From assembly GCF_007860095.1 (NCBI RefSeq), contig NZ_SJPT01000009.1, positions 62,001 to 126,000 on the forward strand: a stretch of 64,000 nucleotides of DNA, in the 5' to 3' direction. The DNA is from Novipirellula galeiformis. GTDB taxonomy: Bacteria > Planctomycetota > Planctomycetia > Pirellulales > Pirellulaceae. Below the pieces are notes generated by a model. It had not been told where the DNA came from. It saw only the letters and a program-made list of their open reading frames with translations, and searched no databases. How positions within the stretch are numbered: position 1 is the first letter of the stretch; each line of letters begins with the position of its first letter. Positions 29,400 to 47,848 of the stretch are shown in pieces. A program made the position numbers and the translations under genes.

Positions 29400-29479
29400 G
29401 TGTCTTAGTAACAGAACGATAATGATCAGCGAGCGGCGGAAACCGGCAGGCGTTGGCTTGTCTTGCTGGCCGGATCGAC

Positions 29480-30757: not shown

Positions 30758-30758
30758 A

Positions 30759-31760: not shown

Positions 31761-31799
31761 GCAATCGACAGCGAGTACGCCTGAAAACACGCGATTGTG

Positions 31800-33057: not shown

Positions 33058-33143
33058 CAAGAACGGCGGACATCACGGGGCACGGAGAGTTGGGCATCCA
33101 TTGCCCAAGATCAATTCGAGGACTTCGGTGCATCACGTTGTCC
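33058..33143 (-). other. attC16
   Basis: An 86-bp site with outer boxes CAAGAAC (33058) and GTTGTCC (33137). The stem shares ACATCACGGGG and GGTGCATCAC with other sites. The boxes are not complementary to the start of their own cassette, so this site is diverged or hybrid. Confidence 0.75.
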
Positions 33144-33663
33144 TGCTCTTCCGGCGTCGCGCGACGGTGATCTCCGCAGTTACGGGGCTATTACCCACGA
33201 TTACAAATCGCGGATCATCCCGCAAGTATCTAAGCATCTCTTCGTCTGTGAATGCAAAATAATCGTCGTGCCAAATCCCGAATTGAAGGTCGGCAAGGTG
33301 TCGCGGCTTATGTTTCGGTCGAAGAAACTCATAGCACCGGTCGGCGACATTGTTGTCCAATCGAATGATCGTCGGGCGGATCACCCAGTCGAAATCATTC
33401 TCGGATTTCCCGATCGCGAAGAGTGCATCCAGAATGTGATGTTGAAAACATGAAATCTCTGGATAATCGTGGTGCATTCTTGCACCAAACTCGATCGCCC
33501 TTTCGTAGTTTCCGTTCAGCACGTAGGCGTGTGCCAATCGTTCCGCCGCGTAGAGATCGTCTGGATATCGCCTAACATCGTCTTGACAATACGCGACGAG
33601 ACCTTCGTAGTCACGGCGTTCGCGAAAGTCGCAGATGTCTTCCCAGGTTTCAAAGTCTCGCAT
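33133..33663 (-). CDS. Cassette C16: TPR-like hypothetical protein
   Basis: The protein has 176 residues, helical, with TPR-like spacing in the first half (YEGLVAYCQDDVRRYPDDLY, AAERLAHAYVLNGNYERAIE). The second half is an unrecognised domain (DLQFGIWHDDYFAFTDEEML). ATG 33663 starts 16 bp inside the cassette; a TTG precedes it by one codon. The stop codon lies in attC16. The function is unknown. Confidence 0.7.
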   Translation of the reverse strand: MRDFETWEDICDFRERRDYEGLVAYCQDDVRRYPDDLYAAERLAHAYVLNGNYERAIEFGARMHHDYPEISCFQHHILDALFAIGKSENDFDWVIRPTIIRLDNNVADRCYEFLRPKHKPRHLADLQFGIWHDDYFAFTDEEMLRYLRDDPRFVIVGNSPVTAEITVARRRKSRTT

Positions 33664-33673
33664 CAATTCAGTA

Positions 33674-33763
33674 GCAGAACGGTAGCGATATGCGGGCGGC
33701 GAACGGTGATTGAACCATTTTGGAAAAACGATGCCGCCGTTCCGTCACCATCGCATGTTCCCC
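33674..33763 (-). other. attC15
   Basis: A 90-bp site from GCAGAAC (33674) to GTTCCCC (33757). The arms GATATGCGGGCGGCG and GCCGCCGTTCCGTCACCATC form the stem. Its GTTCCCC box complements the GGGGAAC at 34093 that begins cassette C15. Confidence 0.85.
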
Positions 33764-33881
33764 CGGTTTGCGGTAGTGGGATGTCGCTAACCACGACGGT
33801 TGACGTTGCTCCAATCATAGCTAGCGCAACGACCGCCGGCAAATCCGTTGATTACCGCAAAAACAAAGAAGAAATTTGCAG

Positions 33882-33950
33882 GCAAAATGATGTGAGGCAA
33901 AATGATAAATCAGCTCGCGTCAATCATTTTGCCACCTAATCATTTTGCCA
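33882..33950. repeat. Double GGCAAAATGAT palindrome in cassette C15
   Basis: Two copies of GGCAAAATGAT (33882 and 33896) face two copies of ATCATTTTGCC (33923-33950), giving a nested hairpin. C15 (419 bp) has no open frame of 60 codons or more on its minus strand, so this palindrome is its main visible content. Confidence 0.8.
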
Positions 33951-34092
33951 TTTGTTCAACCACGTATGCATTTGCGACAGCGAGTTGACGCTTGCCTCAA
34001 CAAGAAACGCTGGAAAACTAGCGGCGGTTCCATCACGCATGCTGGCCGGTTGAATCGCCGACACGATTGACATCAGATCATCATCGCCAGTC

Positions 34093-34182
34093 GGGGAACG
34101 ACAAAGTTCACGCGGCGGGTGCGTGGGACATTGATTTTACAACCGACGTTGCCGCCCGCTCGCGTGCAACACCTGGTTCTGT
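34093..34182 (-). other. attC14
   Basis: A 90-bp site from GGGGAAC (34093) to GTTCTGT (34176). The arms CACGCGGCGGGTGCG and GCCGCCCGCTCGCGTG pair. The GTTCTGT box is the exact complement of the ACAGAAC at 34641 that begins cassette C14. Confidence 0.88.
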
Positions 34183-34299
34183 CGCTTTTCCGGGATGGAC
34201 ATAACTGACGCCAAAGTGCACTTGGTGCAGTAGAGCGTTGCCCGGAATACATGAATTGGACGTTTTGATTGTAGCATATTAGACTTCGAAACGTCATCT

Positions 34300-34608
34300 T
34301 CACTTAGAGTCGATTGGTTCGCGACGAATGAATCCGACAACGAGCAGTGCGACACCAAGAAGCGCAAGCGGCATGGCCCCTATGGATGGGATCATGGCGT
34401 TGCTAATGCCGGTGGCCAAATCAGATGGTTTTGGAGCGGTTGATGAATTCGCGACCGCGTCGAAGGACCAGATCATTCCAATGACAGTCGCGATAATGCA
34501 AAGTGTCGCCAACGCAAGTGAGGTGAATCCCGCCCAAAGCCAGCGGCGCGATGCGCGAGTCTTTGGCTTGCTGGAAATAGAACCGGGCGTATAGGGATTG
34601 TCGTCCAT
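34300..34608 (-). CDS. Cassette C14: small two-helix membrane protein
   Basis: The protein has 102 residues and two transmembrane segments (WAGFTSLALATLCIIATVIG and SIGAMPLALLGVALLVVGFI), with a basic, cytoplasm-like N-terminus and a charged tail. No family was recognised. It begins 38 bp into the cassette. Confidence 0.65.
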   Translation of the reverse strand: MDDNPYTPGSISSKPKTRASRRWLWAGFTSLALATLCIIATVIGMIWSFDAVANSSTAPKPSDLATGISNAMIPSIGAMPLALLGVALLVVGFIRREPIDSK

Positions 34609-34640
34609 TCGACGGTGTCAGTCCAATTGTTGTATTCGCG

Positions 34641-34731
34641 ACAGAACGGTTGACATCACGGGGGACGGAGGGTTGGTTGACCATGGGAGCAATTGCCGCA
34701 AGCCGTCCTCGCGTGCATGTCGTGGTTCTGG
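34641..34731 (-). other. attC13
   Basis: A 91-bp site from ACAGAAC (34641) to GTTCTGG (34725). It shares TGACATCACGGGGGACGG and CGTGCATGTCGTGG with attC1 and attC5. Its GTTCTGG complements the CCAGAAC that begins cassette C13. Confidence 0.88.
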
Positions 34732-34862
34732 CTTTCGCGGCAGGGACCGATTCGGCAAATCCGAACCGGTCTCGTCCCCCATCAGCATACCACCGCATCA
34801 TGGACTGCGCAACTTCGAGCGCACCAGATTGACCGCGCATCCTTCATCGAGCGCACCGTCAT

Positions 34863-35018
34863 GCTCGTACTCAGCGAAGCGGTACTCGTACTCGGTTCGG
34901 ACGATGAAACGAGAAGACCGTTTGCGTCGACTGTCGACTCGGCGGCACACGCCGTCCGCTCGTTGCCGCGGATTCGAGTAGGAGCACGAGTACCGGCTGC
35001 GCCTGAGTACGAGTACGA
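34863..35018. repeat. Paired inverted repeat element filling cassette C13
   Basis: The left arm at 34863-34895 and the inverted arm at about 34974-35018 are the same family as 32827-33050. The centre between the arms is unrelated to the other copy. The right arm begins 12 bp from the attC12 box, and C13 (389 bp) shows no convincing gene. Confidence 0.7.
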
Positions 35019-35029
35019 TTTCTTCGTTG

Positions 35030-35126
35030 CCAGAACGTTTGGGTTAGCGGGGCCGCGCGAGCGATTCCCCACTTCGAAAACGTCAGCTCGCGGCCTCCGT
35101 TGCAACCCTTGGCTCGTTGGTTCTTG
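35030..35126 (-). other. attC12
   Basis: A 97-bp site from CCAGAAC (35030) to GTTCTTG (35120). The stem pairs GGGGCCGCGCGAG with CTCGCGGCCTCCG. The outer box does not fully complement the start of its own cassette (GTTCGTT). Confidence 0.75.
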
Positions 35127-35129
35127 TCG

Positions 35130-35801
35130 CTAGGGAGACGGTATCACGACGGCCCCACCTTGTTCGAACGTGGTGGATTGTTCGTGAGTCAGTACACGAT
35201 CTGACAGCACAGGAACCGTGAATGGTTCAAGAGCATGTCTCCCATCGGAAGTAACGAGTTGCGTTGCGATAGTGTAAGTTCCTGATATGTCTACGTGGCG
35301 AGGCCAAACCAGCGAAACAACAAAATAGTCGGCGTCATTTGGTTTCAGCACATGTGGGGTTTTGACGTATCGCGTTGCCTTTTCGCTAGGTTGCAAGTCC
35401 GGAACGGAAATGACGTACTCCCCGCTGGTTTCGAGCTTTGCCGTTTGAATGCTGCCCTCCGGCACGTTTCCTTCCGCTACGAATTCGAACTCGGCTCGTT
35501 CCACAAGAATTGTATGGTTTGTGTTGTTTAATAACTTGACCCCGATTTCCACGCGATCTGTATTCTTGGCCGGATCATAGTGTGCCGCATCACGATCAGG
35601 AGGGTAGAAAGGGGAAGGCGGATTGACGAATGACTCATGGGTGAACTCTGAAATGCCAAGGCCTTTTGAGGCGAAAAACCAACGGTCAGCTAGTGAGACG
35701 AGTTCATCTCCCTTGACGACGAACACGTAAAAGAAAGTGAACCAAGTCGCAACTTTGGTCCATTCTATCCGTCGAAACCATGACCGCTCCGGCTTCGTCA
35801 T
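35130..35801 (-). CDS. Cassette C12: membrane-anchored hypothetical protein
   Basis: The protein has 223 residues. One N-terminal transmembrane segment (VATWFTFFYVFVVKGDELV) is followed by a beta-rich soluble domain (VEIGVKLLNNTNHTILVERA, ISGTYTIATQLVTSDGRHAL). It has no recognised family. ATG 35801 is chosen; a TTG at 35852 would extend it by 17 residues. The stop codon is 4 bp from attC12. Confidence 0.65.
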   Translation of the reverse strand: MTKPERSWFRRIEWTKVATWFTFFYVFVVKGDELVSLADRWFFASKGLGISEFTHESFVNPPSPFYPPDRDAAHYDPAKNTDRVEIGVKLLNNTNHTILVERAEFEFVAEGNVPEGSIQTAKLETSGEYVISVPDLQPSEKATRYVKTPHVLKPNDADYFVVSLVWPRHVDISGTYTIATQLVTSDGRHALEPFTVPVLSDRVLTHEQSTTFEQGGAVVIPSP

Positions 35802-36128
35802 GGGGTTTCCATGATGGTCAAGCAGGCCCCGGTCGTGTTCGGAATTCGTCAAATCATTGCCCCCGAATAAAGTGTCCTATGGAAGAGGCGTGATTTGGTC
35901 GAGTGCAAGGCGCAAGTATCGAGGTTTTCGCTTCATCCAACGAACGACCGCCGTCACCGGGCGGCGAGAGCAAAACTAAATGTGAGAAAACGCATTGACG
36001 CCGCTCCGGGCGCGTAGACCGAGGTCTCTTTGGTTTAGGTTAGTGTTTGTGTTCCCTGTTTGCCACTGGTTTCCCGTTATGGTGTCACAAGATTCTAACC
36101 GTGCCGCATTGACCCTCGGCCCCTCTCA

Positions 36129-36161
36129 GATCCGGACGTGCCACTTTCTAGCATCCGGCTC
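36129..36161 (-). ncRNA. Group II intron domain V
   Basis: The minus strand reads GAGCCGGATGC, then TAGAAAGTG, then GCACGTCCGGATC. This is the standard 33-34 nt domain V hairpin with AGC catalytic triad, internal bulge and GAAA-type loop. It lies 15 bp beyond the reverse transcriptase stop codon. Confidence 0.85.
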
Positions 36162-36175
36162 CCAGCCAACACCTC

Positions 36176-37654
36176 TCACACGGCACTCCACTTTGTACGC
36201 GACAGGGCAATCAGGTCGGTCAAGCGGCGTGGATTCGCTAATGGATGACGGTCGCATAGGCGATCAAGATGCGTCCAGTTCACATAGCTGCTCTGACTCC
36301 GGCGGCTCAAGTGGCGTTTGACCATCACGCGGGCTCGGTTGCGGTATGCCATCAGCATCGGCCAATTGTCATTGACTCCATAATACTGATAGTGACCGCG
36401 GAGCTTCGCGTTCAACGTCTGCCACATCTCACCGATCGGTGTATCTAGCTGACTACGAAACCATTTACGCAATTCAACCACTTTCTGACGATACTTCTTC
36501 CCAGAGGTCTTCCGTTTCAGCTTGAATTTCCCGGCGCGACTGCGCCCACAGTAGTGAGTGAATCCGAGGAAGTCGAAAGCTCCTGGGCCCCCTTCGTCAT
36601 ACCGGGTGGAGTCCCGGCGGGCGAGACGGCCGAAGCGAAGCAGCTTTGTCTTATCCTCAGCGACCGATAACGAGAACCGAGCAAGACGTTTTGGCAACAC
36701 CGCTTGGTATCTCCGTGCATCCAATTCAAATTCAAAGCAGCAGATGAAATCATCTGCATACCTGATTAGGGACGCATAGCCACGCATACGCGGTTTCACA
36801 TCACGTTCGAACCACTGATCCAGAACGTAATGCAAGTAGACGTTTGCTAGCAGCGGAGAGAGGCTAGCCCCTTGCGGGACGCCCTCATCGGTTGCTTCCT
36901 GTTTGCCTTCGATCAGAACTCCTGCCTTCAGGAAGCGGCGAACTAGTTCGAGCAGCTTCGGATCGCTGATGCGAATCTGCAGCAACTCTAGTAGCTGGTC
37001 GTGCGACACGTTATCGAAGAAGCCTTCAATGTCGGCGTCGCTGACCCAGTTCACTTTCTCTGTGGCGATCGTTCGACCGAGTACCGCAAGTGCCTGGTGA
37101 CATGATCGCTTGGGACGGAAGCCATACGAAGTGTCATAAAAGTCGACTTCGTAAATCCGTTCCAGAACCATGACGACCGCTCGCTGAACGAGCTTGTCTT
37201 CCACACAGGCGATCCCCAGCGGGCGACTCTTCCCATTCCCTTTGGGGATGTTCACTCGCAGACTGGGATTGGGTCGATAGCTTCCGTCATGGAGACGTTC
37301 CAGAAGGTTCAGCAGATTGCTCTTTAGATCCTCCTCGTAATCCTCCACAGTGCGGCCATCCACCCCCGGCACTTTCCCTCGTTTCAGTCGGCGAAACGCA
37401 TACCACAGCAGCTCGTAATTGAGCAGCGAGAAGAGGTTATTGAAAACCTCATCGGGATGCGATGTCGCTCTTTCGGCGATGCGTCTAAGACGATCCAGAA
37501 CCGAACTCCCACCACTGAGTGTGGGCGATTCGGAGTCTTCAACGCGTGTTGGCCTGACCGCCTTCCCTTCACCAGCATTACCCAGCTTCATTCCACTTGA
37601 TTGGGCACCAAGCTTCTGCGGTACTATTCGGTCATCCGACTCCCTGAATGTCAT
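36176..37654 (-). CDS. ltrA: Group II intron reverse transcriptase/maturase
   Basis: The protein has 492 residues. The RT domain has motifs IPKGNGKSRPLGIACVEDK, SYGFRPKRSCHQAL, GVPQGASLSPLLANVYLHYV and the YADDF catalytic box. A maturase X domain and a C-terminal segment (LRGHYQYYGVNDNWPMLMAY, RHPLANPRRLTDLIAL) follow. No HNH endonuclease domain is present, as in class C introns. It serves splicing and retrohoming of the host intron. ATG 37654 begins about 425 bp into the intron. The frame is intact, so the intron may be active. Confidence 0.92.
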   Translation of the reverse strand: MTFRESDDRIVPQKLGAQSSGMKLGNAGEGKAVRPTRVEDSESPTLSGGSSVLDRLRRIAERATSHPDEVFNNLFSLLNYELLWYAFRRLKRGKVPGVDGRTVEDYEEDLKSNLLNLLERLHDGSYRPNPSLRVNIPKGNGKSRPLGIACVEDKLVQRAVVMVLERIYEVDFYDTSYGFRPKRSCHQALAVLGRTIATEKVNWVSDADIEGFFDNVSHDQLLELLQIRISDPKLLELVRRFLKAGVLIEGKQEATDEGVPQGASLSPLLANVYLHYVLDQWFERDVKPRMRGYASLIRYADDFICCFEFELDARRYQAVLPKRLARFSLSVAEDKTKLLRFGRLARRDSTRYDEGGPGAFDFLGFTHYCGRSRAGKFKLKRKTSGKKYRQKVVELRKWFRSQLDTPIGEMWQTLNAKLRGHYQYYGVNDNWPMLMAYRNRARVMVKRHLSRRSQSSYVNWTHLDRLCDRHPLANPRRLTDLIALSRTKWSAV

Positions 37655-38101
37655 TTGTCTTCGTCGCTTATTCCACTCCTAAGACATACTCGGTCGCTTG
37701 CGACTGGATGTCGCCGAGCGAGCAAGAACATCAGGGTCTCACTGGTTGCCTGCTTAACATGGTGTGTAGTGCGAATGGGCCGCCGACCCCGGGTCTTCCT
37801 TTGCAACTTGCCATAAGCGCTGCAAACGATGTTGCCTTCAGGTGTGAACAAACCTTGGGCAGGATCCAACAGGTACAAAATTTCGGGGCTAATTCCATTC
37901 AACGTCGCAGGGCCACCTACGATCGCTTCATCCTCACTACCTTTCTGTGTACGCTTCAACGACTGACTTCGACCCAAGGTCTTATACAGCCGCTGCAACA
38001 CTCGATACCGGGCACGTGGCTAGCGTTTACCCAGGCGGGATTCACACCCGCTAGTCAAGCAGACCTTGCCAGTCCGCACGTGCACGCGATTGTTCGCCGA
38101 G

Positions 38102-39076
38102 CTACCCCCCGCTCGCGATCAGGTAAATCTTTATCGCTTCTTCTGCGACCCCACGACCAGCTTCTAGTGCATCACGAATCTTATTCAACGAGGCTGTGAA
38201 TTCATCGATGTCTCGCGGCAAGCCGGAATTATTGCTTGCCTTTGCAACAATCGCGAGGTGGCGAGTTCGATTGATGACGTCCAATGGTACTGTGAAGCTC
38301 CCGTCAGTCTTACCTCGTGCGACGCCCGGATTGTTAAGTGGATCTGCATTGGCACCCCGATGCACATTGAGAATGTCCGATTTGAAAAGAGTGTTTTGTG
38401 TATCGTCCAACAATACTACTTGGCCGTACGCGTAACCACTTCCATTGAGGCCTGCCTTTTTGACACGTACAAAAAGCTCAACCAACCCATCCTGTGATCT
38501 GCGACTTGCCTTTGCGTGCACATATGCCGTCGTTTGTCCGTCATGATCGGTGACGGTATCGGTGGTAAGCGGGAACCTTGCACCACTTGAGCTGTCGCGG
38601 TCACTCGCGCCCTGAAGAGAAGCCAAGAAATCCGTAACAGACTCCTGCGTTGGCTCAGAGCGAACTGTCCCGGAATACGTCTTCACCCCTGTAAACGTCT
38701 GGCCGTCCCCTGATATATACAAACGCCAGCGAGTTCGCCCATCCACTGTATTGAACGAGGATGCTCCAAAGAAGAAAGACGTTGGGTCCTCCTTGTCCTT
38801 GTATATGAAGCCTTGCTCTGTGAATCCGCTGTTGTCGGTCGCACGAAGGCCAGCAGACCGCACGAACTTAAGTTCGGACCAATACGTTTTGTTGGCGTAG
38901 CTATAAATCGCTGCCCCTTTCCTATTTCCCAAAAAGTACGACCCTTGATCGTTAATGTAAACGGCTTTGGGACCTTCTTGCGCGAACGGCGAATCGACGG
39001 TCTGAAATTCATCTTGCGCGAATGTTCGCGATCCTCCCACGGCAAGAAAAGCGATGAGGACGAAGCGTTGTAACAT
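38102..39076 (-). CDS. Cassette C11: secreted hypothetical protein
   Basis: The protein has 324 residues and a signal peptide (LQRFVLIAFLAVGGSRTFAQ). The mature protein is beta-rich (YWSELKFVRSAGLRATDNSG, SGYAYGQVVLLDDTQNTLFK) with a C-terminal helix. No known domain was recognised. ATG 39076 is chosen by the signal peptide; the frame is open to 39202, which runs into attC10. The stop codon is 4 bp from the right half of attC11. Confidence 0.7.
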   Translation of the reverse strand: MLQRFVLIAFLAVGGSRTFAQDEFQTVDSPFAQEGPKAVYINDQGSYFLGNRKGAAIYSYANKTYWSELKFVRSAGLRATDNSGFTEQGFIYKDKEDPTSFFFGASSFNTVDGRTRWRLYISGDGQTFTGVKTYSGTVRSEPTQESVTDFLASLQGASDRDSSSGARFPLTTDTVTDHDGQTTAYVHAKASRRSQDGLVELFVRVKKAGLNGSGYAYGQVVLLDDTQNTLFKSDILNVHRGANADPLNNPGVARGKTDGSFTVPLDVINRTRHLAIVAKASNNSGLPRDIDEFTASLNKIRDALEAGRGVAEEAIKIYLIASGG

Positions 39077-39139
39077 CTGTGGTCTCCCTGAGTCTTGAGG
39101 CAAAATGAAGTCGGAAACGGCGATAACGTGATGGGTATT

Positions 39140-39231
39140 GGCGAACGTCAGCGATATGCGGGCGGCGGCGAGAGACTCAGCTGTTGCGAGGGCGACAACC
39201 ACCGCCGCTCCGCATCATCGCATGGTTCGCC
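39140..39231 (-). other. attC10
   Basis: A 92-bp site with perfectly complementary outer boxes GGCGAAC and GTTCGCC. The stem pairs GCGATATGCGGGCGGCGG with CACCGCCGCTCCGCATCATC. The right box does not complement the start of its own cassette C10 (GCGTAAC side), which suggests a past hybrid or mutated site. Confidence 0.88.
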
Positions 39232-39243
39232 GTCGCTGTGAAT

Positions 39244-39750
39244 TCACCGATCTTCCGAAGTGTAGAATTCAAGGGTGGGCGGAAGGAAGTCAAATCGTTT
39301 CATCATGCCAGTATTCCTGCCGTACGCCGGCGTGAGCAGCAAATGACCCTGTGATGTCCACCCGTATTTGCAAGCGGCTGACCAACTTGAAGCCTCAGGT
39401 CGAGTGTCGACAATTTCGTTGTTTTCTTTCGCGACAGCCGAATGCAACGAGAGAAAGAGAATGTCTCCGTATCTCTTTCCGTCTTGGAAGTGGTAGCTGC
39501 CTGTATATACGGTCTCACGGTCTGGCGCGTTGTAACGTCCTCGTAAAATCTCTCGTTTCGTGAACGAACCATCTGGCGAGAAGTGAAGTCGAGTTTCGCA
39601 CTTCTTCGGGTCGAAGCGGTTGACCCATGTTCCGGTCAAATCAGGCTTTCCATGTCCGCTGAAGAAGTACGCTCCGCCTAGAAACGCGACGATCGGAGCG
39701 ATCACGCTCCACACAACGAGCAGTCGGTTTGTGCTATTGAGCTTTGCCAT
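39244..39750 (-). CDS. Cassette C10: membrane-anchored lipocalin-like protein
   Basis: The protein has 168 residues. One N-terminal transmembrane segment (LLVVWSVIAPIVAFLGGAYF) precedes a lipocalin-type start (DLTGTWVNRFDPKKCETRLH) and short beta strands. Similar GTW folds are common among small planctomycete extracytoplasmic proteins. No catalytic motif was seen. It begins 42 bp inside the cassette. Confidence 0.68.
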   Translation of the reverse strand: MAKLNSTNRLLVVWSVIAPIVAFLGGAYFFSGHGKPDLTGTWVNRFDPKKCETRLHFSPDGSFTKREILRGRYNAPDRETVYTGSYHFQDGKRYGDILFLSLHSAVAKENNEIVDTRPEASSWSAACKYGWTSQGHLLLTPAYGRNTGMMKRFDFLPPTLEFYTSEDR

Positions 39751-39786
39751 TCTAAAAGTCGTGTAGCTACGCTTCTGATTCAGTCG

Positions 39787-39878
39787 GCGTAACGTTACGG
39801 TTCAGCGGGCGGCGGCGAAAGATTCGACCATTGAAATCACGGTGACCACCGCCGCTCCGTTGCAGCCGATGGTTATCC
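39787..39878 (-). other. attC9
   Basis: A 92-bp site from GCGTAAC to GTTATCC. Arms CAGCGGGCGGCGG and CACCGCCGCTCCGTTGCAGC pair. GTTATCC complements the GGATAAC that begins cassette C9. Confidence 0.9.
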
Positions 39879-39884
39879 GCACAG

Positions 39885-40433
39885 CTAGTCCATTGGAGAC
39901 GGATAGCGATGAGCGACCCAGACTCTATTTGAACCTGGATGCACGTACAATGTTACAGAATGCGAATTGATAAGGCTTGTCGTGTCGTACCTTTTCGTCA
40001 ATGCAGGAACTTTTCGGTTTGCCTCACTGAGGTCTGGGAAAGTCGTAGTTTCTTCGGAAGTCAGCAAGGGCTCGCCAAAGCGATCGGACGGGATCATCGG
40101 GAGTATTGCATCGGTCGGAAGTTGGAAGCAGCAGGAAACCTGTCCCCACGAATCATCGTGCTGGTCCAACACAGTGCCATCGGGGAATGAGATCCCGGTG
40201 CCGTTCGCGACGAAGTTGTAGTTCGATTCCGCGTCCGAGTCGGTAAACTGACCAATCGTCTCTACAGATCGGTGTTCGAGGCCAAAAAGTGGCCCCTCGT
40301 CGGACAGTTCGCCTAACGCAGACAGAAACATAAACGCGGTGATCGCTCGTAGGGTGTGCCATCCAACAATGCCAAGCAATGTGACAACCGTTGCCACAAC
40401 GACGACCTTCGTCAAGCGTTTCCGTTTCGTCAT
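39885..40433 (-). CDS. Cassette C9: membrane-anchored hypothetical protein
   Basis: The protein has 182 residues. An N-terminal basic stretch and transmembrane segment (VVVVATVVTLLGIVGWHTL) are followed by a soluble domain with a CC pair (GQVSCCFQLPTDAILPMI) and a C-terminal strand (YVHPGSNRVWVAHRYPSP). No family was recognised. The ATG lies 19 bp into the cassette. Confidence 0.65.
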   Translation of the reverse strand: MTKRKRLTKVVVVATVVTLLGIVGWHTLRAITAFMFLSALGELSDEGPLFGLEHRSVETIGQFTDSDAESNYNFVANGTGISFPDGTVLDQHDDSWGQVSCCFQLPTDAILPMIPSDRFGEPLLTSEETTTFPDLSEANRKVPALTKRYDTTSLINSHSVTLYVHPGSNRVWVAHRYPSPMD

Positions 40434-40446
40434 GTGGATTTAGGTC

Positions 40447-40537
40447 GGATAACGTGGGCGATCAGCCGGTCGCGACGGTTGATTTTCCATTGTCAAAAAT
40501 GACGACTCCGCGACTTGGGTGCATCGCTTGGTTCGCC
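40447..40537 (-). other. attC8
   Basis: A 91-bp site from GGATAAC to GTTCGCC. Shared core elements include GTCGCGACGG and GACTCCGCGACTTGGGTGCATC. GTTCGCC complements the box starting cassette C8. Confidence 0.88.
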
Positions 40538-40566
40538 TCGTGGGCTACGAGCCATGAGCAAACCGA

Positions 40567-41466
40567 TCAACGATCGGTGTTCTGTTCACGCGCCGTCGTC
40601 GAGCGGGAGACCTTCGACATGAGATTGATTTCTCTTCCGGATCGTGTCGCGAGTGCGTGGTAGTCCTCTGGCTTCGTCTTAAGCGTGTTCAAAAAATAGG
40701 CAAAGCTGTCGACGTTGACGAAGTAAGCGCCTCCTTTATAAGGCCCGCCAAAGGATAACGCATCGTTTTCCACTGACGGATGATAAACATGCCGCGACGT
40801 TGCTGGTCCCGCAGCGATCCAGGGGCCTAACGCGGTGTCCACCTGGCCCAATGCCAGTGTTGAGTCGGTGCCGTCAGTGATGTCTTTGATCGTGATCCCG
40901 GCCGCATTTGTAAATGCACCATTGTCCTTCCCGAGAGCGCCCCGGACAAAAGCAAAGTGCGCTAACGCGTACCCGTCCTCACTGCGGATTGGCTTGATGC
41001 CAGGGGCCAAGAATGCCGGGACGACTGACCGGGCCGCCTCCAGGTTGGCCGGATCATCCCATGCCTTCGATCGATCAATTGAGTCGTAAAGCGTCTTGGC
41101 AGCACGTGCGATCTCGTCGTCGAAAAACCGATTTCCCAGTTCACCGCCGCTCGAAAAATCCCGCGCGTCCAGGTACGGGAGCAACAAGACGAATCCGCTG
41201 AGGCGTTTTTCTGGGGGCAATTCTTCGTTTGGGATCACAGCAGGCGGGAGTGAACCCTTTTCATCGTGGTACTTGTGCATCGCACGCACGAGTCCCCGCA
41301 AATGGTTGCGAGTGATCTCGCCCATTTCTTCCTCATCAAGTTGGGCCCATTCCGCCGGTAGCGATTCCGTTTCCACTGCTGTATCGCCTATTAGCTGACC
41401 GAAAGCTGATGTATGCATTGCAATGAGCAACGCAGCTACTGGGAGAAACGTGAGTCGAGGCATCAT
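40567..41466 (-). CDS. Cassette C8: secreted DUF1559-like protein
   Basis: The protein has 299 residues and a signal peptide (LTFLPVAALLIAMHTSAFGQ) instead of a pilin leader. It carries DUF1559 landmarks: GLVRAMHKYHDEKGSLPPAV (compare AMHNYHDTFQSLPPG at 19734) and a DITDGTDSTLALGQV block. The terminal H-x9-DG motif is absent. A planctomycete-specific protein family carried as a cassette is unusual and suggests capture of a host gene. The role is unknown. Confidence 0.75.
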   Translation of the reverse strand: MMPRLTFLPVAALLIAMHTSAFGQLIGDTAVETESLPAEWAQLDEEEMGEITRNHLRGLVRAMHKYHDEKGSLPPAVIPNEELPPEKRLSGFVLLLPYLDARDFSSGGELGNRFFDDEIARAAKTLYDSIDRSKAWDDPANLEAARSVVPAFLAPGIKPIRSEDGYALAHFAFVRGALGKDNGAFTNAAGITIKDITDGTDSTLALGQVDTALGPWIAAGPATSRHVYHPSVENDALSFGGPYKGGAYFVNVDSFAYFLNTLKTKPEDYHALATRSGREINLMSKVSRSTTAREQNTDR

Positions 41467-41481
41467 AGTGTTCCTTGTGTA

Positions 41482-41571
41482 GGCGAACGTTAACGATCAC
41501 GTGGTCGCCGCGAACGATCAACCACTCCAACAAACTCAACTCGGCGACTCACGTGCATCGTCTGGTTCGCC
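41482..41571 (-). other. attC7
   Basis: A 90-bp site with complementary outer boxes GGCGAAC and GTTCGCC. Its interior (GATCACGTGGTCGCCGCGAA) is nearly identical to attC4. The box complements the start of cassette C7. Confidence 0.9.
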
Positions 41572-41940
41572 GCTTCCGAATAGTCTCTTCCAAAATGGCT
41601 TCTTCGAAACCGACTGCGATTTCATTGCATCTGGATATCGTTCCCCATCGTCTCCTTGGACATTAGCACCAAGCAGGTCGGCAATTGCAACCATCTTGTC
41701 GACCAGAGCGTCGTTGGGATGTTTTGAAGTGATCTCACCGGAATAGTATCCGAGCACTCCAGGCTCGCCGTTCCAAGCGGCAAATACGTACTCACCATCC
41801 GTCATTACGCAGCGAGTTTCGGTGTCGAGTTCCAGTTCGGGATCATTGTCGATCAAATGTCGCCACTCCGCCTCGGTTATTTCGGGACCGTGCCCGTCGC
41901 ACCAATTTTCTTTTCGGGTGATGTGTAGGTCGTAACCCAT
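41536..41940 (-). CDS. Cassette C7: hypothetical protein of the MGYDLHITRK type
   Basis: The protein has 134 residues. It starts MGYDLHITRKENWCDGHGPE, a pattern I associate with a family of small bacterial proteins of unknown function. A middle block (FAAWNGEPGVLGYYSGEITS) may bind a ligand. The last residues, DDARESPS, are encoded by attC7 itself. It is soluble and its function is unknown. Confidence 0.72.
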   Translation of the reverse strand: MGYDLHITRKENWCDGHGPEITEAEWRHLIDNDPELELDTETRCVMTDGEYVFAAWNGEPGVLGYYSGEITSKHPNDALVDKMVAIADLLGANVQGDDGERYPDAMKSQSVSKKPFWKRLFGSGEPDDARESPS

Positions 41941-41965
41941 AGGTCAACATCCAAGCATCTCAGTC

Positions 41966-42058
41966 GGCGAACGTTAGAAATCACGGGGAACGGGCGGACG
42001 ACTTGCAAGCAAACCAAAAAACGGACCACCCGTTCTCCAGTGCATTTCATGGTTCCCC
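41966..42058 (-). other. attC6
   Basis: A 93-bp site from GGCGAAC to GTTCCCC. GTTCCCC complements the GGGGAAC beginning cassette C6. Arms AATCACGGGGAACGGG and CCGTTCTCCAGTGCATTTC pair. Confidence 0.88.
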
Positions 42059-42080
42059 GAATCTTGGTCAACCAGAAATT

Positions 42081-42491
42081 TTACCAGTTGTGCCATCCCT
42101 GATTGTAGCAAATTGTTTTGTCGCGAATCCTACACGTCGTGCCAGTGTTGTCGATAACGATGTCGCCATGAATCCAGACGCCTGAGAAACCCGAGTCACG
42201 CCATGCGTCAGCGTGCTGAGTGTCCATGGCGAACAGAATGCGGTCATCACGATAAGTCTTACGGAACCGAAGCCGGACCTCTGTGTTTTCGTCAACTGGG
42301 CTCGTTGAAACAGTTGTCCCAACGACATTGAACTGGTGTGTACGATCATCGCGAACGCAAACCTTGACCGATGCCACACAATCCACGCCAATTTCGCTGG
42401 CAATGTCAGTCAAAACCGGAATCGCGATCTGAGTGACCACCGCCGTCAGCAATTCTTGCGGTGGGTCAAACTCATCGCGTTGCGTTGCCAT
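42081..42491 (-). CDS. Cassette C6: hypothetical soluble protein
   Basis: The protein has 136 residues. An amphipathic N-terminal helix (LLTAVVTQIAIPVLTDIA) is followed by beta strands (VDCVASVKVCVRDDRTHQFN, VRLRFRKTYRDDRILFAMDT). No known motif or signal peptide is seen. The ATG is 20 bp inside the cassette. Confidence 0.65.
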   Translation of the reverse strand: MATQRDEFDPPQELLTAVVTQIAIPVLTDIASEIGVDCVASVKVCVRDDRTHQFNVVGTTVSTSPVDENTEVRLRFRKTYRDDRILFAMDTQHADAWRDSGFSGVWIHGDIVIDNTGTTCRIRDKTICYNQGWHNW

Positions 42492-42505
42492 TCAGTACTT
42501 CGGTA

Positions 42506-42595
42506 GGGGAACGGTAGACATCACGGGGGACGGACGAAAGATCTTCCACTTCAAAAACCGCGCAAGCCGTCCTCCCGTGCATGTCATGGTTCCAC
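42506..42595 (-). other. attC5
   Basis: A 90-bp site from GGGGAAC to GTTCCAC. The interior is nearly identical to attC1 (AGACATCACGGGGGACGGAC, CCGTGCATGTCATGG). GTTCCAC complements the start of cassette C5. Confidence 0.9.
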
Positions 42596-42654
42596 CCATT
42601 TGTGGACGGCAGTCCCAGCAGCTTTACGACGACGGCCGTTGGTTAACGAGTATA

Positions 42655-43017
42655 TCACGTTGAGCTCCCAGGCAAACCGGAAATCGAACGGGCGCGATCA
42701 CGCTTGAGCGCAGGCGTAAGGAACTGAAGTGCCCACGAACGCAGAGTCCGTTCATCGTGGAAGTGCAGGTCTTCGACGAACTTGACGTGGAAAAGTGATC
42801 GCATGTCAGGATAGCCGCAAGTTAGGACTCGGTCGGCCATTTCAAAAAACTCGAGCACCCGTGCTTGATCGTGGTGGTCAATTGCTGTTTGGGTGTGCTT
42901 TCGAAACGCGACGAATGCAAAGTGTAAACGAGTCTTTGCGGACTCGCCTTCGAAGTCGAGCGAAAGCTCTGGAAACTGCTCAAGGGACCATTCAAGGAAT
43001 GAAGTGCGAAACGTCAT
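42655..43017 (-). CDS. Cassette C5: small hypothetical protein
   Basis: The protein has 120 residues, helical and soluble (AFRKHTQTAIDHHDQARVLE, FHVKFVEDLHFHDERTLRSW). The pattern is reminiscent of DUF7674-type small proteins, but I cannot confirm it. The ATG is 24 bp inside the cassette. Confidence 0.65.
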   Translation of the reverse strand: MTFRTSFLEWSLEQFPELSLDFEGESAKTRLHFAFVAFRKHTQTAIDHHDQARVLEFFEMADRVLTCGYPDMRSLFHVKFVEDLHFHDERTLRSWALQFLTPALKRDRARSISGLPGSST

Positions 43018-43035
43018 CGTGCATCACGCTTCGTG

Positions 43036-43125
43036 GTGGAACGTTTGGGATCACGTGGTCGCCGCGAACGATCAACCACTTCAATAAACTCAACTCGGCG
43101 ACTCACGTGCATCCCTTGGTTCTGC
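43036..43125 (-). other. attC4
   Basis: A 90-bp site from GTGGAAC to GTTCTGC. GTTCTGC complements the GCAGAAC that begins cassette C4. The interior is shared with attC7. Confidence 0.9.
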
Positions 43126-43545
43126 CTTTTCCTCGACAGCCTCGTAGGCCACAAGCACGCGATCGCCAATTTCAGGCACAGCTTTTTCGATGCATCGCAC
43201 GAAATCGCCGACGTCAAACTTGGCTCGTTGAGGAGCGTCAATGTCGGTAATCTCGTAAACATCCCCAGGGTACCAAACCGAACCAGCGGTGTAGTACTCT
43301 CCGGCACTCGTTCGAGAAGGAATCAGTATATTTACGGCCGTAATGAATCCCTCAACCCAGTGATCAACCCCAAGTTCGTATTCACCAATCGAGAACCCAT
43401 CAGGCCAGTCGCGGAAACCTGGTTGCATACGCAGTCTAACGATAGCGTCTTCCGCATCGTCATTCGTCGCGTACACTCCGATGAATTTGGCGTGCTCGCG
43501 ACCGCAAATTTCATGCTCGTGCTGAAGTACGAATACTTTGGTCAT
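43090..43545 (-). CDS. Cassette C4: DUF7336-like protein
   Basis: The protein has 151 residues. The start MTKVFVLQHEHEICGREHAK and the middle GVYATNDDAEDAIVRLRMQP resemble the widespread DUF7336 small proteins (VxVLQH start, DGFSI, and ELxxDHWxEGF, here YELGVDHWVEGF). The C-terminal residues RDARESPS come from attC4 sequence. ATG 43545 is chosen by the conserved start. The function is unknown. Confidence 0.75.
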   Translation of the reverse strand: MTKVFVLQHEHEICGREHAKFIGVYATNDDAEDAIVRLRMQPGFRDWPDGFSIGEYELGVDHWVEGFITAVNILIPSRTSAGEYYTAGSVWYPGDVYEITDIDAPQRAKFDVGDFVRCIEKAVPEIGDRVLVAYEAVEEKAEPRDARESPS

Positions 43546-43550
43546 GATTG

Positions 43551-43642
43551 GCAGAACGGCGGCGATCACCGGGCCGCCGGAGACACGCTCTCCACTAGCA
43601 AACCGCGCGACCGGCGGCTCCGTGTGAATCGCATTGTTATCC
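43551..43642 (-). other. attC3
   Basis: A 92-bp site from GCAGAAC to GTTATCC. The arms GGCGATCACCGGGCCGCCGG and CCGGCGGCTCCGTGTGAATC pair. GTTATCC complements the start of cassette C3. Confidence 0.9.
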
Positions 43643-43650
43643 GCAAACGA

Positions 43651-44523
43651 TTACGGCTCAAGTCGACCAACCGATTCCAAGTTCACACTCGAATAAACGT
43701 CCCCGGCCACATTGACCACATACGCGCCATTGCCGGCGAAGTAGTGCGTATAATCTGTCGTGAACGAAAAACAATCAACGATATCGCCAGACGTTGGCTG
43801 AATCGTAAGCAAGCTCTGTGCACCGCCTGTTTCGAATGGCCATGTAATTGCGAGAAAGAGCTTTCGTTCTTCATCGTACGCCAACCGCAACGCATGGACT
43901 CCCTTAGAGTGATGAGCTTCCCAAACAGGTGTTCCATTCGCGTGGTAACAGGAGATTGGCGCACCACTTTCAGAAACACAAACAAACTCGGGAGCGAATG
44001 CTACATCAAGTACTGCGAATGATTTGCGATCAACATCACAAATTGGATCGAGTTTACTGGTCGCAAATTGCAAGGGTCGTTCCATGCGATCATGGACGGA
44101 CAAATCATCGTGCGGGCTTTCGTAGAGTTTTTTGAGGCCGACTAGGTGTTTGCGAAACCAGCCAAAGCGACTCAGCTGGCCGGTATTCACATCGAACGCT
44201 GAGACGAGGCCTCGATGGTGTGAACAATACACGGTTTGGGAATCGAGAGAAAAACGAACCGACTGAAGCTCGTCCAGAGCTTCGCGTTCCCAGGCCTTCG
44301 TCCCGTCTGAACGATGCAGCGTTAAACGACCAGTCCCGTATTCTCCGGCCGCAATCATCTTGCCATCTGGTGCCAAAGCAAGCCGTGACCCACCGAAATC
44401 AGTTTCCACAGAAAACGTAGCGATCTTCTGTAAAGTCTCCAGCTCGTAGATGCGCACGACATTGTCACCGTCAAGCGTCGCGACGAGGTTTCGAGAAGAG
44501 ATGACGTCGCGTGAAAAAGCCAT
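43651..44523 (-). CDS. Cassette C3: beta-propeller (WD40/YVTN-like) protein
   Basis: The protein has 290 residues with no signal peptide. Repeated four-strand blades are visible (NLVATLDGDNVVRIYELETL, RLALAPDGKMIAAGEYGTGR, SVRFSLDSQTVYCSHHRGLV). It is probably a binding or scaffold protein. ATG 44523 lies 16 bp inside the cassette. The frame is open to 44691, but that extension is attC2 sequence. Confidence 0.75.
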   Translation of the reverse strand: MAFSRDVISSRNLVATLDGDNVVRIYELETLQKIATFSVETDFGGSRLALAPDGKMIAAGEYGTGRLTLHRSDGTKAWEREALDELQSVRFSLDSQTVYCSHHRGLVSAFDVNTGQLSRFGWFRKHLVGLKKLYESPHDDLSVHDRMERPLQFATSKLDPICDVDRKSFAVLDVAFAPEFVCVSESGAPISCYHANGTPVWEAHHSKGVHALRLAYDEERKLFLAITWPFETGGAQSLLTIQPTSGDIVDCFSFTTDYTHYFAGNGAYVVNVAGDVYSSVNLESVGRLEP

Positions 44524-44532
44524 TCTTGATTC

Positions 44533-44623
44533 GGATAACGGCAGGGTTGACCGGGGCCGAGCGGATGAGCAACCACTGCCCAAAAACGTTTTCGAGGCCT
44601 CCGCGTCCAACCCATGGTTCCAC
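44533..44623 (-). other. attC2
   Basis: A 91-bp site from GGATAAC to GTTCCAC. The arms GCAGGGTTGACCGGGGCCGA and GGCCTCCGCGTCCAACCCAT pair. GTTCCAC complements the GTGGAAC that begins cassette C2. Confidence 0.9.
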
Positions 44624-44651
44624 CTTCTTTGCAGCGGAACGGGGCATTGTA

Positions 44652-45098
44652 TCAGGTGTCGCAATTGTGGGTTCTCGGCGGCCAGGGCCATTCTTCGTGG
44701 TCGCTGTTACGATTACCACCGACACTCTTCAGCCATTCGCGGAAGGCTGGGCGTGCATGACAAACAGCCCAATCCAACGGAGTTCCGCCACTCGAATCGA
44801 CACTGTTGATATCAGCACCGTGCTTGTGTAGTAATCGCGCGGCATCGAATTGGTCGCAGACGCAAGCGAAGCTGAACGCGGTCTCGCCGCCTTCGTTCTT
44901 CCAGAGCACATTGGCATCGGAGTCGAGAAGGACGTGCATCGCATTAAGACTTCCCAGGTTTGCGGCTAAGGTCAGCCAAGCGCCAAGATCTTCGTGACCG
45001 ATGAGATTGGATGACTCAATCGTTTGGCGCAGTGCGTTCGCATCGTCCAATTCGATTGCTTGGGAGATGTCAGATTCGATGTCGTCTGGGATGGTCAT
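44652..45098 (-). CDS. Cassette C2: ankyrin repeat protein
   Basis: The protein has 148 residues with about three ankyrin repeats (LGAWLTLAANLGSLNAMHVL, ETAFSFACVCDQFDAARLLH, GGTPLDWAVCHARPAFREWL). It is a cytoplasmic protein-binding module, and the partner is unknown. The ATG is 14 bp inside the cassette. Confidence 0.82.
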   Translation of the reverse strand: MTIPDDIESDISQAIELDDANALRQTIESSNLIGHEDLGAWLTLAANLGSLNAMHVLLDSDANVLWKNEGGETAFSFACVCDQFDAARLLHKHGADINSVDSSGGTPLDWAVCHARPAFREWLKSVGGNRNSDHEEWPWPPRTHNCDT

Positions 45099-45105
45099 TT
45101 TAATG

Positions 45106-45195
45106 GTGGAACGCTAGACATCACGGGGGACGGACAAATGACTTTCCACTTCGAAAACCGCGCAAGCCGTTCTCCCGTGCATGTCATGGTTCTGT
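45106..45195 (-). other. attC1
   Basis: A 90-bp site from GTGGAAC (45106) to GTTCTGT (45189). GTTCTGT complements ACAGAAC at 45670, the start of the first cassette. The stop codon of the C1 gene lies just inside the site. Confidence 0.92.
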
Positions 45196-45668: not shown

Positions 45669-45810
45669 AACAGAACGAGGTAATTATCGCCGGTTGCGGG
45701 GGTGATAAGCTGATCCTGGGGTTGTTATCGCCGGTTGGACCTTCGGCTCCCTCGGTGACACGTGGAACGTTATCACCGGTGCGAGGGAGTGTTATCGCCG
45801 GTTGGGCGTC
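45669..45810. promoter_or_regulatory. Predicted attI junction with four 14-bp direct repeats
   Basis: The cassette/attI junction is in ACAGAACGAGG (45670-45680). Copies of GTTATCGCCGGTTG lie at 45683-45696 (first base A), 45724-45737, 45769-45782 (two changes near the end) and 45791-45804. An inverted half (GGTGATAA, 45701-45708) faces the first copy. Integron attI sites carry direct integrase-binding repeats, so these are candidates for them. They could also be operator sites for intI, which starts about 320 bp away. Confidence 0.6.
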
Positions 45811-46126
45811 CGCCGAGTATGAGGACTCTCAATGCTTGCGTCAAGCAAAATCACAACCCCCTTTTTCTGACGAAAGCTCCAGCGGAGGCATTGACCTGTA
45901 ATGCTGGCGTGCCAAGAATTTTCAAGAGTGTGCTGCGGCGATGTGCAACGGCGGGAAGGACGCTTAGAACTCCTGAAAACGCCGATCTGCTTGCATTGAT
46001 AATGGCTGCGGGAGAGGGCGGTGGTCTTCGCTGGGAGACCACGGGCTACTGGGACGGAATCTGATCCCTACGATCGACGCGGCGAGTTTCTCGTTGCCGA
46101 GTCGGATGATTGCAAAGGACGATTCC

Positions 46127-47848
46127 ATGGCAGGGATGAGTCAGTCTGGAACGACGTGGTCCAGAAGCGAGTGGCACCAGACGCGTGACAAGTGGGCGAA
46201 GATTTGGTTCGAGAATCTCGCCCGGTTCCATGGTCGCAAGCCCCAGGCGACCTGGGAATTCACGCCGGACGAGGTGATTGCCTTCCTCCGCGACCACCTG
46301 CGGCGCAAGACGCCAGCTTGGAAACGCCTCAAAATCATCCAATCCCTGATCTGCTATCGTCGCTATGTCCAGTCATCACCGTTTGATGATCTGACATTCA
46401 TTCGAGTGAAGCTTGAAGAACTCGCTCGGGCAGAGAAGGTCAACGCAGCGAGATCGAGGGGATCGGGTGAAGAAGCGGGCGAGGAGATCGAGGACGTCAT
46501 CGGCCATATCGATCCGAGCGAGCCGGACGTGATTCAGAATATGCGGCGTGCCATACGGTCGCGTCAGGATGGTCTCGAGACGGAAAGAGCGTACGTGTCG
46601 AACGTCCGGGCATTCATGCGTGATCGAGGGCTGAAGTGTCAAGCGAATTTTTCCACGATTGGCGCTGCCGACGTGCAGGCTCATTTGACGGATTTGGCAG
46701 TGGATGGGAATGTGGCCGCTTCGACTCAGAACCGAGCGTTTTACGCTCTCTTGTACCTCTTTCAGCATGTATTGAAACGCGAACTGGGCGAAGTCAATGC
46801 GATTCGCTCGAACAAGGGGAAGCAAATTCCTACCGTGTTGAGCGTTGATGAGATTGAGCAGATTTTTGCGCACTTGCGTGGCGTTCATTTATTGATCGCA
46901 AAGCTACTCTATGGTTGTGGGATGCGGATCAGTGAGGCGATGCGGCTGCGGATGAAGGATTTTGATTTTGACCGGATGGTGATCGAAGTGCACGATTCCA
47001 AGGGAGGGAAGAGTCGGATCGTGCCGATGCCGGCCAGCGTCGTGCCGGACATTCGGAATTGGATGGAGTCTCGTCGGGTGCTGCATGAACACGATTTAGA
47101 ACAGGGGCAAGCGTCGGTATGTTTACCGAAGGCACTGGAGCGTAAGTATCCGGGTGCCGCACGCGAATTGAAGTGGCAGTTTTTATTTGCGTCTCACCGT
47201 TTGTCACGCGACCCACGATCACGTGTACTGCGACGACATCATTTGCACAAAGATACGTTCCCGGCAAACTTGCGTGCGGCCGTTCAACAGGCGGAGATCC
47301 ACAAGCACGTCAGTTCGCATGTGTTTCGCCATAGCTTTGCCACACATCTGTTGCGTGAGGGGACCGACATCTGCACCATCCAGGAGTTGTTGGGCCACGC
47401 CGATATCAAGACGACTCGCATCTACTTGCACTCGCTCAACCGCGTGGATGTGAAGCTGGTTAGCCCACTGGACCGGATGAGCTCGAATCGTCAAACGATT
47501 TCAGCGAACCATGAAGCGGTCGCTGCAAACACACGAGGCTCGGTGCAGGAAGACGCCCGTGGCGAAGGCGTGGCAGTTGAACGATTGGTATCGGAACGAG
47601 CGAATCAGGAGCATGGTGTGATTTCCGAGCACGCCGAGGTTGATCACCAGGTGGCGGCATTGATGCGTGCACTCTCGTCGCCCCAAGATCGCTCGCGGCA
47701 GAAGCGTCAAGCAGCCCCAGACCCGAAGGTGGCCAGAGGCGTAGGCGACCCAGCGCCACCTTATGCAGCGCCACCTTATCCAGCGCCACCGACAGCGACA
47801 GGGTCACTCCGAAAACGGTTGAGGTGGTGGCGCCGCGCGGCGAGCTGA
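46127..47848 (+). CDS. intI: Integron integrase IntI with N- and C-terminal extensions
   Basis: The protein has 573 residues. ATG 46127 is preceded by AAAGGA at 7 bp. The tyrosine recombinase residues are all present: Arg267 in GCGMRISEA, Lys292/295 in DSKGGKSR, His398 and Arg401 in HVFRHSF, His424 in LLGHADI and Tyr433. The IntI-specific insert, absent from XerC/D, is seen at about 335-360 (ALERKYPGAARELKWQF). Usual IntI length is about 320-340. Here about 140 extra N-terminal residues precede the core-binding domain, and about 125 disordered residues with PPY repeats follow the catalytic Tyr. It recombines attI with attC and is oriented away from the cassettes. Confidence 0.92.
   Translation: MAGMSQSGTTWSRSEWHQTRDKWAKIWFENLARFHGRKPQATWEFTPDEVIAFLRDHLRRKTPAWKRLKIIQSLICYRRYVQSSPFDDLTFIRVKLEELARAEKVNAARSRGSGEEAGEEIEDVIGHIDPSEPDVIQNMRRAIRSRQDGLETERAYVSNVRAFMRDRGLKCQANFSTIGAADVQAHLTDLAVDGNVAASTQNRAFYALLYLFQHVLKRELGEVNAIRSNKGKQIPTVLSVDEIEQIFAHLRGVHLLIAKLLYGCGMRISEAMRLRMKDFDFDRMVIEVHDSKGGKSRIVPMPASVVPDIRNWMESRRVLHEHDLEQGQASVCLPKALERKYPGAARELKWQFLFASHRLSRDPRSRVLRRHHLHKDTFPANLRAAVQQAEIHKHVSSHVFRHSFATHLLREGTDICTIQELLGHADIKTTRIYLHSLNRVDVKLVSPLDRMSSNRQTISANHEAVAANTRGSVQEDARGEGVAVERLVSERANQEHGVISEHAEVDHQVAALMRALSSPQDRSRQKRQAAPDPKVARGVGDPAPPYAAPPYPAPPTATGSLRKRLRWWRRAAS

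Follow-up and report, generated by a model that had tools for sequence, protein, structure and literature searches.

As described in the accessible parts of the relevant literature, the integrase IntI1 binds the L, R, DR1 and DR2 sites of attI1, that is, two repeats beyond L and R (PMC12901181). These repeats favour the attI1 x attC reaction and may act as a topological filter (PMC8946536), and accessory binding domains have been noted in some attI sites (PMC4792948). Long attI sites are already known, given that attI3 of class 3 integrons spans 131 bp, as compared to the 65 bp of attI1 (PMC8876359). Outside class 1, attI sites are poorly described and are not detected by IntegronFinder, according to the available text of PMC9024848. 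The site considered here lies in a window corresponding to the whole 64,000-nucleotide stretch of Novipirellula galeiformis DNA that was analysed (contig NZ_SJPT01000009.1, positions 62,001 to 126,000). As in attI1, direct repeats are found on the intI side of the crossover, by the L/R core and before the cassettes. Unlike attI1, with its 65 bp and exactly two repeats, the site presents three direct boxes and one inverted box beyond L (box 1), covering about 130 bp and in this respect resembling attI3. Moreover, and again unlike attI1, the boxes are spaced in steps of about 11 bp and a predicted cassette promoter, Pc, lies directly beyond them. Like attIA of the Vibrio cholerae chromosomal integron, the site is chromosomal and is accompanied by its own IntI, although attIA is reported to lack such direct repeats in that part of PMC8946536 that could be consulted.

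The integron integrase gene intI (46127..47848, + strand) encodes 573 residues, with residues 135-451 matching TIGR02249 (408 bits; cut-off, 265). IntI contains approximately 130 N-terminal and 120 C-terminal residues in addition to the 315-residue core of the family; its predicted structure (mean pLDDT 37.5, from 3 sequences) was too poor to interpret. To the left of intI lies a cassette array, in which a covariance model built from ten window attC sites identified 15 attC sites at E <1e-7 (including the ten seeds), spanning 33059 to 45195 and all on the - strand. The attC of the first cassette, found in the same manner, corresponds to 45107..45195 (- strand). As expected of an integron attI, the block addressed here (45676..45850, - strand) is situated between the cassette array and intI, adjoining the latter. 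The crossover region was assigned to 45670..45677 (- strand), with exchange predicted between 45675 and 45676, namely, G|TT on the - strand and ..AA|CGAGGTAATTATCGCC on the + strand. The R side of the crossover comes partly from the first cassette, reading TTCTGTTG on the - strand. As such, the GTT of the GTTRRRY R box is kept, yet the next bases are CTGT and do not match this consensus. In other copies of the block, the bases after GTT vary with the first cassette, and most of the R box is described as coming from the cassette (PMC9410878).

Four direct 14-bp repeats had been proposed upstream of intI in an earlier, sequence-only reading of the window. When the + strand of the window was scanned, the motif was indeed found at each of the four proposed starts, but as the exact 14-mer at only two, namely 45724 (box 2, 45724..45737) and 45791 (box 4, 45791..45804). 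Box 1 (45683..45696, + strand), ATTATCGCCGGTTG, contains one mismatch to the 14-mer, while box 3 (45769..45782, + strand), GTTATCACCGGTGC, contains three and matches the 11-bp core GTTATCRCCGG. An inverted half, GGTGATAAG, noted in the same reading, is present at 45701-45709 and reads CTTATCACC on the - strand. The distance of 7 bp claimed to separate the predicted crossover from box 1 likewise holds with the crossover placed between 45676 and 45675, with box 1 occupying the position of an L half-site. A conserved element, GACCTTCGG (CCGAAGGTC on the - strand), is found at 45738..45746 (+ strand). A promoter scan of the region returned two promoter-like sites, as compared to 0.3 expected, these being the predicted Pc (TTGACG-17-CATACT; 45816..45844, - strand) and the predicted intI promoter (TTGACC-17-AAGAAT; 45891..45919, + strand). 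A sequence resembling the intI promoter, TTGACC..GAAGAAT, was recognized by eye in other copies. The boxes are flanked by Pc on one side and by the attI crossover on the other, with box 4 being just downstream of the predicted Pc start.

The four repeats are not the product of chance. In the window as a whole, 14 sites match the motif at up to three mismatches, as compared to 6.8 expected, a number reached by none of 100 shuffles (largest, 13), with four of the 14 falling within 122 bp. When 10-mers were counted in the 1.1 kb preceding intI, TTATCGCCGG was found four times, which none of 20 shuffles attained. Across the 7.4-Mb genome, 12 motif sites were detected at up to one mismatch, as compared to six for a reversed control pattern. 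Half of these 12 belong either to the window block or to a single further copy that the genome contains, and the remaining six, counted as a total outside both blocks, equal the six of the control at the same stringency. The sequence-only reading had held that a repeat common elsewhere in the genome, or absent upstream of orthologous intI genes, would speak against it; instead, the motif is at background level outside the attI blocks and is found upstream of related intI genes. An exact two-box pattern searched across 296 genomes of the order matched this genome only, being too strict to be informative.

With up to three candidates scored per genome, matches to the block were found in at least 11 of 241 genomes of the family, the Pirellulaceae (own genome included), with Aporhodopirellula aestuarii ICT_H3.1 and Rhodopirellula solitaria CA85 being the named matches. 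Nine genomes, scored in full, contained between 1 and 11 block rows each, namely, 2 in G000, 5 in G143, 7 in G144, 11 in G154, 10 in G160, 4 in both G157 and G149, 1 in G145 and 3 in G170, the latter of only 25 bp each. Two of the five G143 rows represent one split copy. In all, the 47 rows correspond to 46 places. Six places (three in G144 and one each in G149, G157 and G145 (L110)) were outside the analysis, and one of the two places at L080 was oriented. When copies from the same genome were compared in pairs, homology mostly began at about the same point, a few bases to the left of the block, beyond which most pairs present unrelated or rearranged DNA, with some pairs also sharing cassettes. 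AAC, corresponding to GTT on the cassette strand and hence to a G|TT crossover, stands at the crossover, ahead of the first box, in 35 of the 39 oriented copies. In 29 of the 39, AAC plus one base (AACG in 25) stands right before the block, while in six others AAC was found at a shifted start; AAC was not detected at this point in the remaining four oriented copies (C8, L074, L083 and L094). At the opposite end, similarity is lost just past TCAAGCAAA, the upstream flank of the predicted Pc, in C8, L079, L080, L082 and L089. With similarity ending at the crossover and at the Pc flank, the conserved block extends from the crossover through the boxes and leader to Pc. A constant platform side next to a changing cassette side is the behaviour of an attI. 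Judging from these sequence comparisons, the block indeed carries an attI.

The second copy of the block in the own genome matches window positions 45678-45850 at 95% identity and lies about 250 bp from an IS91-type (Y2) transposase gene, with no intI. As this copy lacks AAC at its left edge and the sole nearby attC match is weak (E 0.23), it may be a relic. The transposase gene (L013 1052-2239; G000:C8) is found directly to the left of this intI-less block copy, in a cassette-like orientation.

To assess conservation within the block, 34 of the 39 oriented copies were aligned (alignment A1), with L074, L083, L092, L093 and L094 being omitted as divergent or partial and the start points of L073, L081 and L082 being shifted. 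In this alignment, mean column identity was 0.87, 0.94, 0.97 and 0.85 in the cores of boxes 1-4, respectively, 0.67-0.86 in the spacers and 0.57 in the region upstream of Pc. At the crossover itself, the attI side scored 0.88, as compared to 0.45 for the cassette side. The inverted box (0.74), the GACCTTCGG element (0.96) and the -10 and -35 elements of Pc (0.97 and 0.99, respectively) were scored in the same terms. Four boxes were counted in 22 of the aligned copies, three in eight and five in four; the fifth box of L075 lies 90 bp away and may be spurious, and that of three G157 copies lies at 20 bp. Boxes 2 and 3 are spaced 45 bp apart in all 34 copies, and boxes 3 and 4 are spaced 22 bp apart in 31 of the 34. 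Of the 28 copies with box 1, 18 show a spacing of 40-42 bp to box 2 and ten a spacing of 51-53 bp, a variation of about one helical turn.

The distribution of such boxes among more diverged integrons was next considered. TIGR02249 matches at E 1e-60 were found in at least 123 of 240 genomes, with up to eight candidates scored per genome, and the most repeated 10-mer upstream of 38 intI rows (37 places, two being too short) was sought with no preset motif. A 10-mer of the present kind was obtained at 10 of the 16 other loci with an IntI at 55-61% identity, with 0-4 of 20 shuffles scoring as high, examples being TTCTCACCGG (L135), GTTATCACTG (L140), CTTGTTATCA (L132), CGTTATCACC (L106) and GTATTCTCAC (L027). 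In the same scan, the top 10-mer was of another kind at L105, L111, L113, L116, L129 and L139. A degenerate box pattern was also scored at 35 loci, after omission of L104, which duplicates L136, and of L120 and L127, which were too short; this pattern was written after several loci had been seen, such that only the 10-mer scan is unbiased. At least three same-strand degenerate boxes were present within 250 bp upstream of intI at 11 of the 17 loci with an IntI at 55% identity or more (10 of 16 when the window locus is not counted), a level reached in none of 200 shuffles of each. Four of the 17 presented two boxes (5-17 of 200 shuffles as high) and two presented none, one of these offering only 560 bp of upstream sequence. 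By contrast, none of the 18 loci with an IntI at 51% identity or less reached three boxes or even two on that strand, with L107 and L118 containing two boxes on the opposite strand. The presence of the boxes is thus tied to the IntI lineage.

Within that lineage, the boxes themselves are not uniform. Two integrons of the same genome contain different versions, namely GTTATCGCC at C9 and TATTCTCACC at C15, which suits an integron-encoded binder better than a single host regulator. Examined by eye, the crossover-adjacent sequence next to AAC fits the box at L128, L132 and L135 and does so loosely at L105, L106, L133 and L140, but not at L027, L104 and L138. Because the crossover sequence departs from the box in some platforms, a single reader need not recognize both the L half-site and the repeats. 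As a possible reader of the extra boxes, the N-terminal extension of IntI was considered but not retained, since several IntI proteins with the extension lack the repeats; those IntI proteins with repeats carry the extension, and loci where the match starts near residue 129 lack the repeats. Markedly different repeats were seen upstream of further intI genes of the family, namely, GTGACCCTGT six times at L114, TACTGGGCCA ten times at L119 and CCGCAGAACA six times at L130.

The spacing of the boxes was considered in terms of helical phasing, given that the helical repeat of free B-DNA is 10.5 bp and that inferred in living bacteria is about 11 bp. The 29 spacings available from 11 platforms fit a period of 11.0 bp with a mean cosine of 0.71, a test that common descent may inflate, in which the spacings of L128 and L132 are identical and a spacing of 58 lies off the period. 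None of 20,000 random sets fit as well when the period was left free, and the same held for the 19 distinct values. When one spacing per locus was used, the mean score was 0.69 (5-95%, 0.54-0.84), as compared to a 99.9% null of 0.66. A period of 10.5 bp fits poorly (mean cosine 0.27, reached by 2% of random sets). Spacings near multiples of 11.0 bp are what would be expected for proteins arranged on one face of duplex DNA, and this phasing is taken here as the strongest sign of proteins binding the boxes on duplex DNA.

The repeats are thus probably an attI arm, comprising additional boxes bound by the cognate IntI much like DR1 and DR2 of attI1, albeit more numerous. The sequence-only reading had offered integrase-binding direct repeats, more than the usual two, as one option; the position of the boxes at attI with box 1 at the L place, the link to the IntI lineage and the phasing of about 11 bp agree with this proposal, making such predicted IntI binding the best-supported reading. 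That the block is multicopy and that Pc and attI enclose the boxes could not be seen in the sequence-only reading. The attI, with its phased boxes, is real, conserved and present in multiple copies, and the mechanism that follows is likely. Box 1 would serve as the L half-site of the crossover core, while boxes 2-4 and the inverted box would provide extra duplex binding sites for the cognate IntI. Placed at about whole turns of 11 bp, the boxes would hold a row of IntI, presumably bound cooperatively, on one face of the DNA, and this row would raise the amount of IntI at attI and favour attI x attC over other pairings. Given the placement of the boxes after Pc and ahead of the crossover, with box 4 immediately beyond the predicted start, damping of Pc by bound IntI would likewise be anticipated. 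In a literature search limited to titles and the starts of abstracts, with subscription papers being mostly outside its coverage, no description of this attI or of its copies was found.

Three other explanations were weighed against accessory IntI sites. The boxes could be operators of a separate regulator of Pc and the intI promoter, which, lying downstream of the Pc start, would have to act as roadblock operators. The position of the boxes, between the crossover and two predicted opposing promoters, would suit such a role, as a cooperative regulator would suit phased direct repeats; furthermore, in the accessible text of PMC3108266, the E. coli motif is reported not to serve planctomycete LexA, and a survey of intI regulation by the SOS response names R. 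baltica as an exception. Yet the background level of the motif outside the attI blocks, the difference in motif between two integrons of one genome, the repeat placed 7 bp from the crossover at the L position and the retention of boxes in copies without detectable intI all argue against a separate regulator, to which none of the present findings points. This explanation is accordingly considered unlikely, and LexA or another global operator was disfavoured given the background-level motif count across the genome. The multicopy nature of the block prompted a second alternative, in which the block is the end of a transposable element, for example one that is IS91-like, with the repeats being transposase sites. 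The dispersal of several copies within a genome and the Y2/IS91-type transposase gene about 250 bp from the second own-genome copy would agree with this. However, this transposase was not found near 25 other block loci (flanks of up to 1.5 kb), the left edge is an integron crossover, 35 of 37 copies have attC sites on the crossover side and 21 of 37 are followed by intI or by what remains of it. With that edge and those attC arrays, an IS91 or other transposon end was disfavoured and is deemed very improbable.

Under the third alternative, what is conserved is RNA structure in the leader of the cassette transcript, or hairpins in single-stranded DNA, with the repeats being parts of stems. Such a pure leader was kept as a rival since its named helices show paired changes, with the controls being mixed. 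In alignment A1, 23 cells of the four named helices changed on both sides, as compared to 8.3 in shuffles (0 of 500 as high), and the covariation score was 0.136, as compared to 0.082 in shuffles (0 of 500) and to no more than 0.071 in slid versions. On the other hand, the count of pairs changed on both sides (8) was reached by 28 of 500 shuffles and was exceeded by a version slid by +2 (10 pairs, 19 cells), related rows share changes, pairing in the inverted-box helix holds for only 74% of cells and RNAalifold yields only -3.2 kcal/mol for the 34 copies. The stem TCCCTC/GAGGGA shows paired changes in four of its six pairs and the closing pair of ACC-GAA-GGT varies between A-U, G-U and G-C. 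Paired changes in a stem between boxes 2 and 4 mean that the boxes are not the only conserved thing in the block. While boxes 2 and 3 stand out in the alignment, the conservation of boxes 1 and 4 does not exceed that of the spacer separating boxes 2 and 3 (0.86), which slightly weakens the assignment of the boxes as IntI sites and slightly strengthens the leader. Of the six platforms having CCTTCGG, four (W, L128, L136 and L138) contain an adjacent stretch whose folding surpasses that of at least 292 of 300 shuffles, unlike L132 and L131, where 39 and 219 of 300 shuffles, respectively, were as good. At the same time, CCTTCGG is missing from seven of the 13 platform regions scanned, in which the boxes remain. 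The phasing of about 11 bp is not explained by RNA, and a riboswitch proposed for the attI1 leader was later contradicted, according to the part of PMC9410878 at hand. A leader as the sole explanation is therefore judged quite improbable. In the window, a CCTTCGG element with a hairpin within 45747-45790 is conserved between boxes 2 and 4; this CCTTCGG/stem layer could belong to an RNA leader or form a hairpin in DNA.

If the repeats are accessory IntI sites, then the many platforms lacking an integrase deserve attention. Accordingly, 37 other copies of the block were read in context, covering about 1.2 to 9.6 kb on the crossover side, with attC matches above E 0.01 (L074 has such weaker ones) being left out. 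At least one attC was present on the crossover side in 35 of the 37, the nearest being within 650 bp in 28. The attC orientation was as expected in 34 copies and opposite in L066, the sequence of which holds a run of N; only L065 and L071 have attC on the other side. A full intI was found beside three copies, all in G154, a partial intI beside 18 and none was detected beside 16. As such, 34 of the 37 lack a full intI in the stretch read, although draft contig ends may hide some. Most copies thus head attC arrays with no intact intI, as in CALIN elements, an assignment that, with the usual threshold of two attC sites, applies only to copies with at least two. Unlike CALIN elements, defined by attC sites and a missing integrase, the block copies keep a conserved attI and Pc. 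Similarly, the delta-attI of mobile integron cassettes is attI sequence found away from the integrase-linked site (PMC12901181, in the text available); delta-attI, however, mostly consists of short fragments downstream of cassette genes, whereas here blocks with Pc and attI head arrays. In G143 (5 rows) and G144 (7 rows), scoring all candidates revealed no full-length match to the window IntI, and no TIGR02249 row at E 1e-60 was present among the matches listed. In G170, L092, L093 and L094 are dispersed copies with common internal intI deletions, 92-95% identical over about 1.2 kb or more, a pattern that looks as if a shortened intI module had spread.

An exchange between platforms may be reflected in G160, where a cassette internal to the C12 array is also the first cassette at the C17 attI, with identity in 11 of 11 full 40-column windows. 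The flanks of this common cassette are unrelated and its edges fall at the crossovers, i.e., it extends from crossover to crossover. As the C12 and C17 platforms are 90% identical, copying of the cassette must be recent when set against the age of the platforms. Of the C17 intI, only residues 1-76 are left; if this intI was already truncated at the time, an enzyme acting in trans moved the cassette. This comparison suggests that an intI-truncated attI may have been served in trans. The sole full-length relative of the window IntI in G160, 54% identical and located at C12:180840, has its own attI with related boxes.

A possible, if doubtful, wider picture is of an integron network in the Pirellulaceae, in which one or a few IntI proteins would serve many dispersed Pc-attI platforms in trans, with each platform heading its own array and with the phased IntI boxes assembling a long attI complex that couples capture to transcription. 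Since attI and Pc can persist in arrays that have no intact intI, counts based on intI or on attC alone would miss possible capture platforms. With attI being poorly described outside class 1, as stated in the accessible text of PMC9024848, the block family offers a comparative definition of a long attI in terms of core, repeats, inverted box, phasing and promoter. The natural series of copies with three, four or five boxes, or with a spacer about one turn longer, suits tests of the role of the accessory boxes.

Elsewhere in the window, a group II intron (RF02005, 109 bits) lies within the cassette array, at 37777-38044 on the - strand. To the left of the main attC array, the region at 29412-31793 contains multi-copy direct repeats spaced about 182 and 419 bp apart.
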